Assembly: GCF_015732285.1 (NCBI RefSeq)
Contig: NZ_WIQU01000022.1
Location: 68,536-132,535, forward strand
DNA from: Pectinatus frisingensis
GTDB lineage: Bacteria > Bacillota > Negativicutes > Selenomonadales > Selenomonadaceae
Reading direction: 5' to 3'
Length of the DNA: 64,000 nt
Under the pieces are notes generated by a model. That model did not search any database. It was given only the letters and a program-made list of their open reading frames with translations, and was not told the origin of the DNA. Position numbers and translations under genes: made by a program. Positions 31,087 to 64,000 of the stretch are shown here, in pieces (the stretch's first letter is position 1; each line of letters opens with the position of its first letter).

Positions 31087-31623
31087 ATGGAATTAAAAGG
31101 ATCACAAACAGAAAAAAATTTACTGGCTGCATTTGCAGGTGAATCACAGGCTCGCAATAAATATACTTTCTATGCTTCTAAAGCCCAAAAAGATGGATAT
31201 CATCAAATATCTCAGATTTTTACAGAAACAGCTGACAATGAAAAAGCACATGCTAAAATCTGGTTCAAACTTGTCCATGGTATTGGTGATACGGCAGAAA
31301 ATCTGAAGGATGCGGCTGCCGGAGAAAATTATGAATGGACAAGCATGTATCCTGGATTTGCTAAGACAGCCCATGAAGAAGGATTTGAAAAGATTGCCAA
31401 ATTATTCGAATTCGTTGCCAGTATCGAAAAGACACATGATGAAAGATATCAACTTCTTTTAAGTAATGTAAAGGAAGATAAGGTTTTCAAAAAGAATGAA
31501 AAAGTAATTTGGATGTGTGCAAATTGTGGTTATATTTGTGAAGCAAAAAACGCTCCGCAGGTTTGTCCTGTATGTGATCATCCACAGTCTTTTTTTCAGG
31601 TTCGTGCTAATAATTATAAATAA
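31087..31623 (+). CDS. rbr: Rubrerythrin
   Basis: Non-haem di-iron peroxidase that reduces hydrogen peroxide in anaerobes. Residues 1-135 are a ferritin-like helical bundle with ExxxxxxY/H iron ligands ([53 protein letters not shown]). The C-terminus is a rubredoxin-like iron site with CANCGY and CPVCDHP. 178 residues, normal size. GGAGAG lies before the ATG. Monocistronic, with its own strong promoter and a 26-bp terminator. Indicates an anaerobic lifestyle. Confidence 0.96.
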
Positions 31624-32912: not shown

Positions 32913-32933
32913 AAGAATGCCTCCTAAATATAA

Positions 32934-33195
32934 TAAAAAAAACTCCATCCCTACAAAGGGACGGAGTTTTCCGCGATACCACCCAAAATTATTTATCATT
33001 ACTGGTAAATACACTCACAACGTACTAACATACGCGTTTCTTATAACGCAGAACTAACGTCTTCACTTACTTAATTCGGTGTCGCTTCTCAGAGATGATT
33101 TTCTGTATACCATTATTTACCGAATTTCAGCCCTGCTTCGGTTCTCTGTAAAATAATTCAATACATACTCTTTCTCGTCATCAAATGTATTAACA
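32934..33195 (-). ncRNA. T-box leader (tRNA-sensing riboswitch), predicted isoleucine
   Basis: On the minus strand the leader shows GAGTA of the specifier loop, a Stem I apical part with CAGAGAACCG and GGCTGAAA, the T-box core GGGTGGTATCGCGG (32971-32984) and a terminator hairpin with T run (32934-32967) that competes with the antiterminator. Helix TGTAT/ATACA places the specifier loop 3' side at GAAAATCA (33096-33103). The best codon is ATC (Ile) followed by A. The variable base of TGGN is T, which pairs with discriminator A73; tRNA-Ile has A73 whereas tRNA-Asn (codon AAT, the other reading) has G73. Downstream gene: BASS transporter. Confidence 0.9.
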
Positions 33196-33224
33196 TATAT
33201 TATATTATAATCGTCTAAAAATTT

Positions 33225-33253
33225 ATTTTAAATCAGCTGATAGTGTTTGTCAA
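33225..33253 (-). promoter_or_regulatory. Promoter of the T-box/BASS transcript
   Basis: TTGACA (33248-33253), 17-base spacer, TAAAAT (33225-33230) on the minus strand, about 30 bases upstream of the T-box Stem I. Confidence 0.8.
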
Positions 33254-42312: not shown

Positions 42313-42927
42313 TTACATTTTATGCAGTAATTGTCTTATTGGCAGTACGCGAATAATTAGCAGGCATATGATCAACTCTGGTAATAAATATGAAGCATTA
42401 AAAATCAGTGAATACCAGTATGGTGACATACCGGCCGGAGCATAGCTGCCAAAAAAGGCAACTCCAGATATAAAATGACATAAGAAACGGGCAGTGATAC
42501 CAATCAACACACCTAAGTATATCCTATTTTTAAAATAACCCGCCAGACCAAGTGCCATATAAGGAAGTGGGTAATCAAACAATACTTGTACTGGTTGTAA
42601 GATGAAAGGATCTTGTAATAGATTGATCATGCCATAGGCAAAGCCGGCTAAATATCCTCCTCCCGGTCCATAGCGAAATGCTATCAGTAAAAGCGGTATC
42701 ATACCACCCAAAGTTACACTGCCGCCTTGCGGCATGTGATAAAGACGCAATAGATGTAATATAAAGGCCAAGGCAAGCATTAGTGCAATATTAATCAGCA
42801 TTTTTAAATCTATTTTAAGTTTTTTGATATACAAGAATGCCAAGATTAACAGCAATAATCCCAATAAGGAGAAGACACTGGATGGTGAGGCTGCAATAAC
42901 TGTCAATTTTCCCGATATTTCCATCAT
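42313..42927 (-). CDS. thiT: Thiamine ECF transporter S component ThiT
   Basis: 204-residue membrane protein with six membrane segments that binds thiamine for an energy-coupling-factor transporter (the shared ATPase/T module is elsewhere). The family marks are MPQGGSVTLGGMIPLLLIAF, GPGGGYLAGFAYGMINLLQDP and the FLCHFISGVAFFGSYAP segment whose aromatic residues contact the thiazole/pyrimidine. The ATG at 42927 (or the adjacent one) follows GGAGAT; the ATG at 42945 has no site. A TPP riboswitch directly upstream confirms the thiamine role. Confidence 0.95.
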   Translation of the reverse strand: MMEISGKLTVIAASPSSVFSLLGLLLLILAFLYIKKLKIDLKMLINIALMLALAFILHLLRLYHMPQGGSVTLGGMIPLLLIAFRYGPGGGYLAGFAYGMINLLQDPFILQPVQVLFDYPLPYMALGLAGYFKNRIYLGVLIGITARFLCHFISGVAFFGSYAPAGMSPYWYSLIFNASYLLPELIICLLIIRVLPIRQLLHKM

Positions 42928-42951
42928 ATAAAAATCTCCATTCATAAAATA

Positions 42952-42985
42952 AAGCAGCGCTTCCTATTCATGGAAAACGCTGCTT
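42952..42985 (-). terminator. Expression-platform hairpin of the TPP riboswitch
   Basis: AAGCAGCG/CGCTGCTT outer arms (42952-42959, 42978-42985) extended by TTCC/GGAA, followed on the minus strand by TTTATTTTA and then the thiT ribosome site. Suits transcription termination; translation blocking is also possible. Confidence 0.7.
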
Positions 42986-42987
42986 GG

Positions 42988-43064
42988 ATACGCTTCCCTC
43001 CGCTGGTATTATCCAGATCAGGTAAAGGGTTGCAATATTGCTCTCAGCCGCTGGGCACCCCTAG
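42988..43064 (-). ncRNA. TPP riboswitch (THI element)
   Basis: The minus strand shows the conserved aptamer: GGGGTGCC, GCTGAGA, ACCCTTTACCTGATCTGG, ATAATACCAGCG and GGAGGGA in the right order and spacing. It lies just upstream of thiT, whose transcription it should shut off when thiamine pyrophosphate is plentiful. Confidence 0.96.
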
Positions 43065-43136
43065 CATTACATTTATTTTTTAAGACTATTTTACTGCAAA
43101 AAGGAAACTTTTTCCAGTGCCGGATTATTGAGATGA

Positions 43137-59968: not shown

Positions 59969-60014
59969 TACAAAATCCTCCTCGTTATATTGACGTTTAG
60001 TTTTGTTAAATAAA

Positions 60015-60024
60015 ATGTTCGGAA
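60015..60024 (-). promoter_or_regulatory. Operator-like word downstream of the mini-gene promoter
   Basis: TTCCGAACAT on the minus strand, 14 bases past the -10 of the 47-residue gene promoter. The same ten bases occur at 60115-60124 on the plus strand. CGAAC is the half-site of Gram-positive LexA boxes. Confidence 0.6.
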
Positions 60025-60037
60025 ATCTTTATAGACA

Positions 60038-60066
60038 ATAATACAATATAAGGTAAATTTTGGCAA
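60038..60066 (-). promoter_or_regulatory. Promoter of the 47-residue gene
   Basis: TTGCCA (60061-60066), 17-base spacer, TATTAT (60038-60043) on the minus strand. Confidence 0.65.
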
Positions 60067-60107
60067 GTCTTTTTTCATCTTTATGAATTTTTTATTGCTG
60101 TTTATTG

Positions 60108-60136
60108 TTGATTTTTCCGAACATATTAAGTATACT
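60108..60136 (+). promoter_or_regulatory. Autoregulated promoter of the S24 repressor with embedded operator word
   Basis: TTGATT (60108-60113), 17-base spacer, TATACT (60131-60136). TTCCGAACAT (60115-60124) lies between -35 and -10, so a bound repressor would block RNA polymerase. A good ribosome site (GGAGG) precedes the ATG at 60161. Confidence 0.75.
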
Positions 60137-60160
60137 AAATAAAAACTGGAGGTTTAAACT

Positions 60161-60775
60161 ATGACTGATTTTTCCGAAAAACTGCATGAGTATATGATTG
60201 CTGCAGGAATAAACCAAACTAAATTATCACGTGTTACAGGGATAAACAAATCTTCAATATGTGAATACTTGTCAGGCAGTTATGAACCTAAACAAAAAAA
60301 TGTCTTAAAAATCGCTGCTGCTTTGAATATTCCACCGGAACATTTTTGGGGAATGCAGTTATCATCACAGGTTAAGAATGCTGATAATGACTCAGTGAGA
60401 AAAATTCCGTTGATAGGGCGTATAGCTGCCGGGAGGCCTATTTTAGCGGTGCAGGACTTTGATGAATATATTCCGTGCTGTGATAATATAAAGGCTGATT
60501 TTTGTCTGCGTATTTCAGGTGACAGTATGATAAACGCCAGAATATATGATGGAGATATTGTTTTTATTCGCGAACAGGCAGAAGTGAATGACGGAGAGAT
60601 TGCTGCCGTACTGATAGATGACAGCACTACTTTGAAGCGGGTGTATAAATATGGCAGCATGATTCAACTACGTTCAGAGAATCCTAAGTATAAGCCAATG
60701 GAGTTTAACAGAAATAATTGCAGCGATATACGTATTCTTGGCAAGGCTGTTGCTTTGCTGGGAAGTGTAATATAA
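60161..60775 (+). CDS. XRE-type repressor with LexA-like S24 self-cleavage domain
   Basis: 204 residues. An N-terminal Cro/CI-type helix-turn-helix (about 8-60, INQTKLSRVTGINKSSICEY) joined to a peptidase S24 domain. Cleavage site Ala-Gly within GRIAAGRPILA (about 90-91), catalytic serine in SGDSM (about 122) and lysine in TTLKRVY (about 159) are all in place, so RecA-stimulated self-cleavage is expected. This is the CI/HdiR-like type, not classical LexA, whose HTH differs. No phage genes surround it. It probably represses its own promoter and the divergent small gene. Confidence 0.92.
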   Translation: MTDFSEKLHEYMIAAGINQTKLSRVTGINKSSICEYLSGSYEPKQKNVLKIAAALNIPPEHFWGMQLSSQVKNADNDSVRKIPLIGRIAAGRPILAVQDFDEYIPCCDNIKADFCLRISGDSMINARIYDGDIVFIREQAEVNDGEIAAVLIDDSTTLKRVYKYGSMIQLRSENPKYKPMEFNRNNCSDIRILGKAVALLGSVI

Positions 60776-60932
60776 GTAATATAATATGGAGATAGCAATA
60801 ACTATTAAAAATTTATTTGCAGTAAAAATAAAAGGGCAACTGTTTTGTTAAACTGGTTATACAATTTAGTATGCCGGAGGACGAAGTGGCAATAAGGTTA
60901 GCTGCCGGGATTTTATAAGAGGTATTAGTTAG

Positions 60933-61277
60933 ATGGATAAATCATTAATAAAAGATCAAGTTAAATTATTTAGGAAATTTACTAATTCATGTGTCTGCAA
61001 TGTCAAAGCTGCCATGAATATATACGGAATTAAAAATGAACCGGCTGATTCTTTGGTTTTAGCATATATTTGTCAGGCGCATGCTTGCGCAAAGCAGATT
61101 CAATTGATGGCGGCAATATTGGACACTAAAGAATATGATGTATTCTATAATGCGTTTATTGTGTTTAATACGACTTTTATGCGAGTGGCGGTAACTGGAC
61201 AAGACGCAGATAAAATAGATAACAAATATAATCTTTTTTTGGAAGCTTTTAGTAAGTTGACGTTCATTGATGATTGA
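60933..61277 (+). CDS. Small soluble protein of unknown function
   Basis: Not recognised. 114 residues, predicted all-helical, with four cysteines in the first half (NSCVCN, YICQAHACAK). GAGGT lies before the ATG. Hydrophobic patches (VFYNAFIVFNTTFMRVAV) suggest a compact four-helix bundle. It follows the S24 repressor by 157 bases and precedes tetR by 71 bases, so operon membership is uncertain. Confidence 0.55.
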   Translation: MDKSLIKDQVKLFRKFTNSCVCNVKAAMNIYGIKNEPADSLVLAYICQAHACAKQIQLMAAILDTKEYDVFYNAFIVFNTTFMRVAVTGQDADKIDNKYNLFLEAFSKLTFIDD

Positions 61278-61348
61278 CGGCGAATATTTGATATAAAGTG
61301 CATTATTAAAGAGAGTATTTATCTGGTGAGAATAAATGAGGAATAAAA

Positions 61349-61957
61349 ATGCAGGAAAAATTGACTAAACGGGAAAGCAAAAAAATTCAATCTAAAAAGA
61401 CCATAATTGAGTCAGCAACGCGATTATTTGCTGAAAATGGACTGGCTGAAACATCTATTGCAGATATAATGAAAGAAGCCAAACTTGGGTTGGGGACTTT
61501 TTATAATTATTTTGACTCCAAGGAAAGCTTGCTGAAAGATTTATTAAACCAGTTGGCAGAAGATATTCGCAGTTCATTTTCTTCGATTTCCCGCACACAA
61601 AAAACCTATGCCGGTATTCTTGAGACTGTTGTCACGGAAACGGCAGCATTGCTTGATAAAAATCGTTTTGTTCTGCCATTATTTATGAAAGCGGCCGATA
61701 AAAGTGCACTGCCGCGTGATTTTGAACACGAAAGCGGTGCAGCGCCATTGTTTAAATACATATTTGACGGTATTATAAAAAAGGGACAGGAAACCGGTGA
61801 ATTCCGCAGGGATATTCCGGCTGAAGTAATTACGGAAATGTTTCATTCTATATTCCAGGCAGCATCGTTTAGCAGTCTGCCAGTTCCATTTTGTGAGAAT
61901 GTCCATTATAAAGTACTGATAATACTTGATGGTTTAAAAATAAAGCAGGAGAAATGA
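61349..61957 (+). CDS. TetR/AcrR family transcriptional regulator
   Basis: 202 residues. The N-terminal DNA-binding domain (about 12-60) has the TetR pattern: KKTIIESATRLFAENGLAET, SIADIMKEAKLGLGTFYNYF and DSKESLLKDLL. The C-terminal ligand domain is all-helical and variable, so the effector is unknown. A target cannot be named: no efflux pump is adjacent within the window. The gene ends inside the stem of its own terminator. Confidence 0.9.
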   Translation: MQEKLTKRESKKIQSKKTIIESATRLFAENGLAETSIADIMKEAKLGLGTFYNYFDSKESLLKDLLNQLAEDIRSSFSSISRTQKTYAGILETVVTETAALLDKNRFVLPLFMKAADKSALPRDFEHESGAAPLFKYIFDGIIKKGQETGEFRRDIPAEVITEMFHSIFQAASFSSLPVPFCENVHYKVLIILDGLKIKQEK

Positions 61958-61986
61958 GTAATTCTCATTTCTCCTGCTTTATTTTT
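61936..61986. terminator. Strong terminator of tetR
   Basis: 23-bp perfect arms (61936-61958 and 61964-61986) with five-base loop TAATT and a T run in the right arm. It includes the last codons and the stop of tetR. Confidence 0.9.
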
Positions 61987-61993
61987 AAATTGA

Positions 61994-62199
61994 GTGCGCC
62001 CAGCATAGGCGCATTAATGGGTGAAAGTTCCGAGTGCAGGTTAATAGTGCTAAGCATATAACTGTCTATTGCAAGGCGGAATTTAAAATAAACCAAGGGC
62101 AAATCTCCGGTCCGATAAACAAAGCCTACATATAAGGCAGGAAGAATAGGGCAGGTTGTCCATCAAACCAAATTGATATTGCATAGTACCTAGACCCGG
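61994..62199 (+). mobile_element. Group IIC intron remnant (domain I part, no reverse transcriptase)
   Basis: Starts GTGCGCCCAGCATAGGCGC, close to the conserved 5' end of group IIC introns (GUGxGCC then a short hairpin), followed by ATGGGTGAAAGTTCCG, GTGCAGGTTAATAGTGC, TGCAAGGCGGAAT, GGCAAATCTCCGGTCCGA and CATATAAGGCAGG in the order seen in domain I. It lies 7 bases after the tetR terminator stem, the typical target of class C introns. Only about 200 bases remain; no intron-encoded protein, domain V or 3' end is seen, so it is a dead fragment. The 3' limit is approximate. Confidence 0.75.
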
Positions 62200-62267
62200 T
62201 AAATATTGATTTATTGAAAAAAAAGTATAATAAACATTTATTTTTTGCTGTCTGAATTGTGATAAGT

Positions 62268-64000
62268 TCAGTTTTTAAGAGGTTTTTTTAATGCGGCTAA
62301 AATTGCCATTCCAACTATAGAACCAATTAATATAGATAAAATATACATTAGTGGATTACCGATAGTGGGTACTACGAAGATTCCTCCATGCGGTGCGCGC
62401 AGAGTGCAGGAAAAAGCCATTGATAAAGCGCCGGCTGTTGCTGAACCGATTATACAAGATGGCAGTACGCGCAGCGGATCACTGGCGGCAAAAGGAATAG
62501 CTCCTTCGGTGATAAAGGACAGGCCCATTACATAATTACTGACAGCGGATTTACGTTCGTTTTCCGTAAAACGATTTTTAAAGAATGTGCTGCACAGAGC
62601 AATGGCTAAGGGCGGTACCATTCCACCGGCCATGACTGAAGCCATTATACCGTATTCACCGCTGGCCAGCATGCCGGTGCCGATAACATAAGCGGCTTTA
62701 TTGACAGGACCTCCCATATCAACAGACATCATGCCGCCTAATATGGCACCAATCAATATGCGACTGCTCATGTCCATGTTTTTTAATGTGTCGATGAGCC
62801 AGGCATTTAAAGCACTTACAGGTGGATTAATAATAAATTGAATGAGAATGCCCATTAATAATACACCGAATAATGGATAAATAAGAATAGTTTTTATACC
62901 TTCTAATGAATCAGGTAATACCGTGCAAATTCTTTTTAGGCCGATAATGATATATCCGGCAGCAAAACCAGCCAATAAAGCACCTAGAAAACCTGAACCG
63001 CCTGAGTTGGCCATCGCTCCACCAACAAATCCGGCAACAAGCCCGGGTCTGTCGGCAATGCTCATAGCAATAAATCCAGATAAAACCGGCAGCATAAAAC
63101 CGAAAGATACGCCGCCAATTCCTTTGAAAAAGGCTGCTAGTGGAGTGTTCGAGCCAAAATTAGCCGGATTGGCCGGATCAAAAGGATCAACTAAAAATGC
63201 CAAAGCAATCAAAATACCACCGCCTACGACAAATGGCAGCATGTGTGAAACACCATTCATCAAATGCTTATATATCTGGCGGCCGACTGATTCTGATTCG
63301 GAAGAAGGTGCTTCATAGGTGTCTTCGTCATGGCGATAAATTGGTACTTTACCGCTTAATGCTGTATCCAAAAGTTCATCAGCTTTGTTAATTCCATCAG
63401 ATACTTTGGTTATTAGTACGGGACGACCATTGAATCTCGCCATAGGGACATTTTTATCAGCAGCTATAATGATACATTTAGCTGTCTTTATTTCAGCAGG
63501 GCTTAATGTGTCTTTTGTACCGCCAGAGCCTTCTGTTTCCACTTTTATTTTTATATTACGTTTTTGGGCATGTTGTTCGAGGCTTTCTGCTGCCATATAA
63601 GTATGGGCAATTCCAGTAGGACATGCCGTTACTGCCAGCACATCGTATGATCCCTTACTGGGTACTGCCAGTTTTACAGCAGTTTTTTGCGATTCTTTTT
63701 CATCAATTAGTCTGAGAAATTCATCTGCTGTTTCTGCATGGATCAAAGCTTCTTTAAAATCATTGTCCATAAGCATGGCAGCAAGCATACTGAGCATTTT
63801 CAAGTGTTCATCATCAGCTGATTTTGGTGCGGCGATAAGGAAAAAAAGCCGTGCCGGGCGATTATCCAATGAAGCAAAATCAACACCGCCTTTTACGACC
63901 ATTGCAGTCAGTCCGGCTGTTTTTACTGCATTACTCTTAGCATGTGGTGTTGCAATCCCGTCACCAAGACCGGTGGTGCCGGAAGCTTCTCTGTCTAATA
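62268..64000 (-). CDS. fruA: Fructose-type PTS transporter IIABC (partial, N-terminus off window)
   Basis: Sugar-specific phosphotransferase permease read leftwards from the window edge. The first visible part is the IIA domain with phospho-histidine motif GIATPHAK (about positions 63930-63960), then IIB with the phospho-cysteine AVTACPTGIAHTYMAAESLE, then a IIC domain of about nine membrane segments (HMLPFVVGGGILIALAFLVD onward, with GGSGFLGALLAGFAAGY). 577 visible codons. The order IIA-IIB-IIC and the sequences match fructose/mannitol-family FruA, though other hexoses cannot be excluded. The start lies beyond base 64000. No clear terminator follows the stop at 62268. Confidence 0.92.
   Translation of the reverse strand, partial: LDREASGTTGLGDGIATPHAKSNAVKTAGLTAMVVKGGVDFASLDNRPARLFFLIAAPKSADDEHLKMLSMLAAMLMDNDFKEALIHAETADEFLRLIDEKESQKTAVKLAVPSKGSYDVLAVTACPTGIAHTYMAAESLEQHAQKRNIKIKVETEGSGGTKDTLSPAEIKTAKCIIIAADKNVPMARFNGRPVLITKVSDGINKADELLDTALSGKVPIYRHDEDTYEAPSSESESVGRQIYKHLMNGVSHMLPFVVGGGILIALAFLVDPFDPANPANFGSNTPLAAFFKGIGGVSFGFMLPVLSGFIAMSIADRPGLVAGFVGGAMANSGGSGFLGALLAGFAAGYIIIGLKRICTVLPDSLEGIKTILIYPLFGVLLMGILIQFIINPPVSALNAWLIDTLKNMDMSSRILIGAILGGMMSVDMGGPVNKAAYVIGTGMLASGEYGIMASVMAGGMVPPLAIALCSTFFKNRFTENERKSAVSNYVMGLSFITEGAIPFAASDPLRVLPSCIIGSATAGALSMAFSCTLRAPHGGIFVVPTIGNPLMYILSILIGSIVGMAILAALKKPLKN

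Follow-up and report, generated by a model that had tools for sequence, protein, structure and literature searches.

An isoleucine-specific T-box leader precedes a transporter gene of the BASS family on the minus strand of the window, the whole stretch of 64,000 nucleotides analysed here. We think it probable that this T-box switches on a transporter that imports a branched carboxylate precursor of isoleucine. There is good support for a role of the protein in supplying isoleucine, and such a precursor is a likelier substrate than isoleucine itself. T-boxes and their isoleucine specificity are already known; the conservation of this specificity across T-box-controlled BASS genes is new here.

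The T-box leader and its specificity

The leader scores 121.6 bits with the Rfam T-box model, above the family's gathering score of 93 (E = 2e-26), and model positions 1-219 are fully covered (Table 1). Along the minus strand the promoter-like site is followed by the T-box leader, the terminator, AGGAGG and the BASS gene. The sequence of the specifier loop is GAAAAUCA; its AUC occupies the same place as the AUC in the ileS T-box of the same genome. The variable base of TGGN, at position 32978, is T. In the RF00230 model the T-box sequence pairs with GTCCC, and a competing terminator with a U-run is present. The terminator segment has a folding energy of -25.2 kcal/mol (z = -5.7), and none of 200 shuffled sequences was equally stable. 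The promoter call is only plausible, because the scan gave 6 promoter-like sites against 2.4 expected. Taken with the calibration below, the leader is confirmed as a complete T-box with isoleucine specificity.

Table 1. Features of the leader and its gene in the window, and loci of the four tree places of T-box-controlled BASS genes
Feature	Position or loci	Strand	Basis or remark
Sigma-70-type promoter-like site, TTGACA-17-TAAAAT	33225..33253	-	consensus scan, 11/12 matches
Complete T-box leader, Stem I to antiterminator	32954..33190	-	Rfam RF00230
Specifier codon AUC (Ile)	33097..33099	-	position calibrated on the genome's other T-boxes
Antiterminator, T-box sequence GGGTGGTATCGCGG	32958..32984	-	RF00230 alignment; coordinates read from sequence
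Intrinsic terminator, 16 pairs then U-run	32937..32972	-	terminator scan and folding
Ribosome-binding site AGGAGG, 7 nt before ATG	32920..32925	-	read from sequence
BASS/SBF transporter gene, 328 aa	31926..32912	-	PF01758; start ATG 32912
Place (i), the window's clade	L014, L015, L016, L026, L027, L028, L054, L060
Place (ii)	L094, L095, L108		titles Lachnospiraceae, Clostridium transplantifaecale, Clostridiaceae
Place (iii), ilvD-linked	L017-L020
Place (iv)	L239, L241

The genome carries 13 T-boxes at E ≤ 0.001, and two of these precede BASS genes. If the codon is taken from letters 5-7 of the eight-letter specifier loop, it agrees with the one expected from the downstream gene (named by reading its translation) in 10 of the 11 non-BASS T-boxes: Tyr (aroF/tyrA), Leu (leuA, leuS), Phe (pheA, pheS), Ala, Thr, Trp, Ile (ileS) and Gly. 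The eleventh, the valS leader L011, was misaligned in the rule-based run and counts as a miss; in a separate alignment it reads GTA (Val). Under the same rule both BASS leaders carry ATC. An alternative specifier, AAU (Asn), was discarded, since it conflicts with the calibration and the discriminator base of tRNA-Asn is G73.

At the variable position of TGGN the thrS and glyQ leaders of this genome carry A, the trpE leader C and the rest T. These bases fit U73 (Thr, Gly) and G73 (Trp) of its own tRNAs and A73 of tRNA-Ile(GAU) from G004, a genome of the same genus from which this base was taken; no tRNA-Ile(GAU) turned up in the 29 loci of the draft genome that were scanned for tRNA genes, drawn from 35 tRNA matches. 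An earlier note on this DNA had claimed a full T-box leader before the BASS gene with its own TTGACA-17-TAAAAT promoter, the specifier ATC, and a T in TGGN suited to A73 of tRNA-Ile. The leader is borne out by the Rfam match and the strong terminator, the codon by the covariance-model alignment, which puts the same codon in the specifier loop, and the T by the tRNA-Ile of the same genus; the promoter site was found and is graded plausible.

The window BASS protein

The PF01758 match scores 137.2 bits against a gathering score of 24.3 (E = 6.7e-40), with a longer open reading frame used as query; this frame, starting at GTG 33014, extends into the T-box and was dropped as the gene. The BASS gene stands alone, and the next gene downstream, for rubrerythrin (31087-31623), lies on the opposite strand. 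The protein scores 238.2 bits with TIGR00841, the bile acid:sodium symporter subfamily, below the curated cut-off of 326.3. The bile-acid label is thus not supported, and the doubt cast on it by the earlier note was justified.

The PanS equivalog NF047939 likewise stays below its curated cut-off of 400, at 216.6 bits. PanS belongs to the same family over almost the entire length, whereas in the window protein Thr112 and Asn295 are replaced, and the gene has an isoleucine T-box in place of a pan cluster. The closest solved structure is that of ASBT_NM (PDB 8oyf, 3zuy; phmmer to 8oyf, E = 1.1e-70 over 312 residues). The window protein shares its carboxylate-binding crossover and Asn265, but differs by T112L and N295S in the pocket and by N115D, Q77H and S128A at the sodium site. 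The plant 2-oxo-acid carrier BASS5 is of the same family and has a similar kind of substrate to the one proposed here, namely chain-elongated 2-keto acids, as cited in PMC10645422. According to that paper, plant keto-acid BASS proteins have Ser265 and Gln112, where the window protein has Asn265 and Leu112.

T-box-controlled BASS genes in related genomes

Five genomes of the genus hold nine BASS genes at E ≤ 1e-20. A T-box reading AUC precedes seven of these; L021 and L022, the remaining pair, belong to panC-panD-BASS clusters downstream of a pan motif. Four of the seven T-box genes have ilvD downstream and leuA upstream, and the BASS-ilvD pair under an AUC T-box recurs in 4/5 genomes (G000, G001, G002, G003). 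The second BASS gene of the window's own genome is one of this kind, with an isoleucine T-box and then ilvD directly; the linked leuA carries a separate Leu T-box.

We extended the comparison to 151 genomes of the family, 119 of which have BASS at E ≤ 1e-60, and to a search of 84,980 species genomes, which confirmed at least 571 BASS relatives; the best 80 were added to the sample. The resulting 229 loci gave 223 distinct proteins after six duplicates were removed before the tree was built. The protein of L086 (Selenomonas ruminantium HD4) is identical to that of L034, which points to the Selenomonadaceae as the family sampled. A gene was counted as pan-linked if panC and/or panD lay in the same direction within the fetched stretch. 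Among the 223 proteins, which include the best 80 of at least 571, 17 are T-box-controlled, 75 adjoin panC and/or panD and 131 have neither; the family and genus subset of 145 distinct proteins divides into 12, 65 and 68.

All 17 T-boxes exceed the Rfam gathering score and combine the specifier AUC with TGGT, so isoleucine specificity is conserved across T-box-controlled BASS genes. This was the comparison of homologues that the earlier note had proposed, and it brought up no other specificity. The note's further inference, import linked to isoleucine, is partly supported: the position of ilvD beside the second BASS gene speaks for an isoleucine-related role, and the substrates that the note named stay candidates.

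In a FastTree tree of the 223 proteins the 17 T-box genes are spread over four places (Table 1), a count that depends on the clades shown because the tree is a quick one with uneven support, and parsimony requires seven changes of the T-box label. In the window's clade only 8 of 47 proteins have the T-box. In another genus it is kept before a protein 90 per cent identical to the window BASS (L026). Of the 134 loci showing neither a T-box nor a pan neighbour, 24 were run against Rfam and none gave a T-box; three of the 134 have fewer than 400 bases upstream, so T-boxes may be lost there at contig ends. A core-pattern scan of the 211 loci lacking a profile match gave a single candidate, L112, unsupported by Rfam.

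BASS relatives were also sought in 398 genomes of the phylum, and 30 loci were fetched. Two have a T-box by profile, both copies of BASS genes already counted. The 18 loci from outside the family showed no T-box with the profile built here; ten of them run against Rfam gave no T-box and two pan motifs.

By their gene neighbourhood the pan-linked proteins are a separate set from the T-box-controlled ones. Their panC/panD neighbours and pan motifs fit a PanS role for that branch; Rfam pan motifs also occur at L021, L022, L235, L336 and L339. A third large BASS group of the Selenomonadaceae (L033-L052 and part of L133-L171) has neither T-box nor pan neighbours and, in the 18 proteins tabulated, shares the pocket residues of the ilvD-linked branch. 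Among the repeated clusters of neighbouring genes only panC, panD, leuA and ilvD bear on the substrate question; some clusters are antisense open reading frames of G+C-rich loci and were ignored. The 23 loci inspected from the window's clade in other phyla share no repeated neighbour and thus offer no clue to the substrate.

Substrate pocket and sodium site

In the ASBT_NM study (eLife RP89167, PMC10645422), pantoate is contacted by the main chain of Thr112, Ala113 and Gly267 and by the side chains of Asn265, His294 and Asn295. The same paper reports that Asn265Ala abolishes pantoate binding, that ketopantoate does not stabilise the protein, Asn265 being said to disfavour it, and that replacing Thr112 by Val or Ala raises the affinity for pantoate. 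Small carboxylates and bile salts are the substrates given for other BASS proteins in the literature consulted.

At the contacts Thr112/Asn265/His294/Asn295 the window protein has L/N/H/S, retaining two of the four. Its clade, with a support of 1.0, is uniform in this respect. Residue 112 is aliphatic in 47/47 proteins (V 38, I 5, L 2, M 2); Ser295, Ala266 and Asn265 are each present in 47/47, and Gly267 in 46/47. Among the other 176 proteins of the sample with the best 80 of at least 571 relatives, Thr112 is found in all 176 and Asn295 in 172. Asn265 is retained throughout this sample (223/223). The T-box branches (ii) and (iii) have a pantoate-type pocket (Thr112, His294, Asn295), and branch (iv) has Gln295 and Asp266.

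The aliphatic residue 112 together with Ser295 suggests a substrate without the terminal hydroxyl of pantoate, for instance an aliphatic branched acid. Affinity for pantoate is higher in the Thr112 mutants of ASBT_NM, so a replacement at this position excludes nothing by itself. Retention of Asn265 counts mildly against a 2-oxo acid, if the argument made for ASBT_NM transfers. Pocket change and T-box do not coincide, because branches (ii) and (iii) are pantoate-like and most of the window's clade lacks the T-box.

At the sodium site, to which we take Gln77 of ASBT_NM to belong, Q77H and G110S (ASBT_NM numbering) co-occur in 11/11 proteins with H77. The pair H77 and S110 is present in 7 of 17 T-box-controlled proteins, on three separate branches (the window BASS, L017, L018, L020, L026, L239 and L241), against 4 of 206 others, counts to be read with the relatedness of the sequences in mind; parsimony gives five changes. 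Ion coupling may have changed repeatedly in these proteins.

Proposed mechanism and alternative explanations

Under isoleucine shortage, uncharged tRNA-Ile would base-pair with the leader at two sites, through its GAU anticodon at AUC in Stem I and through its free ACCA end at the antiterminator's TGGT. This would keep the terminator (32972-32937) from forming, and the BASS gene would be transcribed; charged tRNA-Ile would lead to termination. The protein, predicted to have a 10-TM elevator fold and with sodium-coupled relatives, would import a small branched carboxylate convertible to isoleucine. Candidates are 3-methyl-2-oxopentanoate, its 2-hydroxy or 2,3-dihydroxy relative, and 2-methylbutyrate. 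That relatives share the isoleucine switch, one of them next to ilvD, makes import of an isoleucine building block likelier than that of bile acids. Against our reading, ilvC and ilvD are present in 5/5 genomes of the genus, and the need for an imported precursor is therefore not obvious.

Taken at its simplest, an isoleucine T-box ahead of a transporter gene would point to uptake of L-isoleucine itself, or of the branched-chain amino acids in general, as by BrnQ. We know of no BASS protein that carries amino acids, and direct isoleucine import by this family is to our knowledge without precedent. The usual view in the field is nonetheless that T-box-controlled transporters carry the specified amino acid (PMC2494555). 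The genus members are probably isoleucine prototrophs, mostly with an ordinary amino-acid carrier too: BrnQ is found in 4/5 genomes, and in the T-box search of the window's own genome no match adjoins its BrnQ gene. A second, T-box-controlled carrier more likely brings something else, and we regard import of isoleucine as such as fairly unlikely. A PanS-like transporter of pantoate or ketopantoate, placed under isoleucine control indirectly through the shared ilv pathway, appears quite unlikely. It would accord with the NF047939 match, with the abundance of pan-linked BASS in the sample, with the pantoate-type pocket of branches (ii) and (iii) and with panS orthologues reported in Veillonellales in a review (PMC12570885). 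Yet the 400-bit cut-off is missed, Thr112 and Asn295 are lost in the whole of the window's clade, and in two genomes of the genus the pan-linked BASS beside a pan motif is a gene separate from the T-box-controlled one.

The transporter might instead export a 2-oxo or hydroxy acid that accumulates when isoleucine synthesis is unbalanced. The sequence does not show the direction of transport, and the sodium-site residues are changed (N115D, Q77H, S128A) in both the window protein and L026, so coupling may differ. T-boxes switch on at shortage of an amino acid, and the usual response is import or synthesis, which makes export improbable. A chance or relic association, in which the T-box has no meaning for the transporter, might be suspected from its presence in only 17 of the 223 proteins of the sample, which includes the best 80 of at least 571, and in a minority of the window's clade; with terminator, antiterminator and promoter-like site all in place, the same specificity in four places of the tree and the T-box kept in another genus before L026, it is highly improbable.

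Import of a branched precursor, the reading we prefer, can be set beside the habitat of the relatives. Proteins about 46-54 per cent identical to the window protein, among the best 80 of at least 571, come from entries titled Treponema, Bacteroidales, Fibrobacter, Verrucomicrobia and Kiritimatiellae; most of these entries are metagenome assemblies of rumen or gut origin, in which bin errors are possible. Rumen organisms make isoleucine from 2-methylbutyrate, as described in PMC7356843 and PMC2812497; the match with the rumen and gut occurrence is a habitat correlation. A wider proposal, which we hold to be doubtful, is that the window's clade, with its aliphatic residue 112 and Ser295, which occurs in anaerobes of the gut and rumen across several phyla, is a dedicated importer of an isoleucine precursor such as 2-methylbutyrate or 3-methyl-2-oxopentanoate, and that BASS branches elsewhere in the Bacillota joined the same pathway independently, each with an isoleucine T-box of its own. 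If so, the clade would provide a carrier so far missing for the branched acids from which rumen organisms make isoleucine, and uptake of such acids would explain how gut anaerobes obtain isoleucine precursors.

Relation to known T-boxes

The leader shares with the isoleucine T-box class, for example ileS leaders, all conserved parts, the transcriptional terminator, AUC and TGGT. It differs from known T-boxes in controlling a BASS gene, a family absent from the T-box survey list in the available part of PMC2494555, which names ABC, APC, DAACS, LIVCS, MFS, NHAC and NSS transporters and also refers to an unspecified 'sodium symporter' downstream of four T-boxes. In the open literature searched, which leaves two key reviews outside its coverage, we found no report linking T-boxes to BASS; the words 'bile' and 'symporter' are absent from the main text of PMC3766115, PMC12452182 and PMC7778990. 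BASS proteins are widely labelled bile-acid symporters, and the consistent association with isoleucine starvation at four points of the tree, one of them next to ilvD, offers a cheap and direct test of their cargo.

Other features of the window

A weak match to group II intron domains D1-D4 (62065-62233, 32.2 bits against 32) falls in intergenic DNA, with a TetR-like gene on one side and a PTS gene on the other; none of the seven open reading frames of at least 100 aa listed for 60000-64000 is an intron protein. A TPP riboswitch (42978-43072, 63.5 bits) precedes a gene for a 210-aa membrane protein (42313-42945), which by eye looks like a thiamine ECF carrier component.
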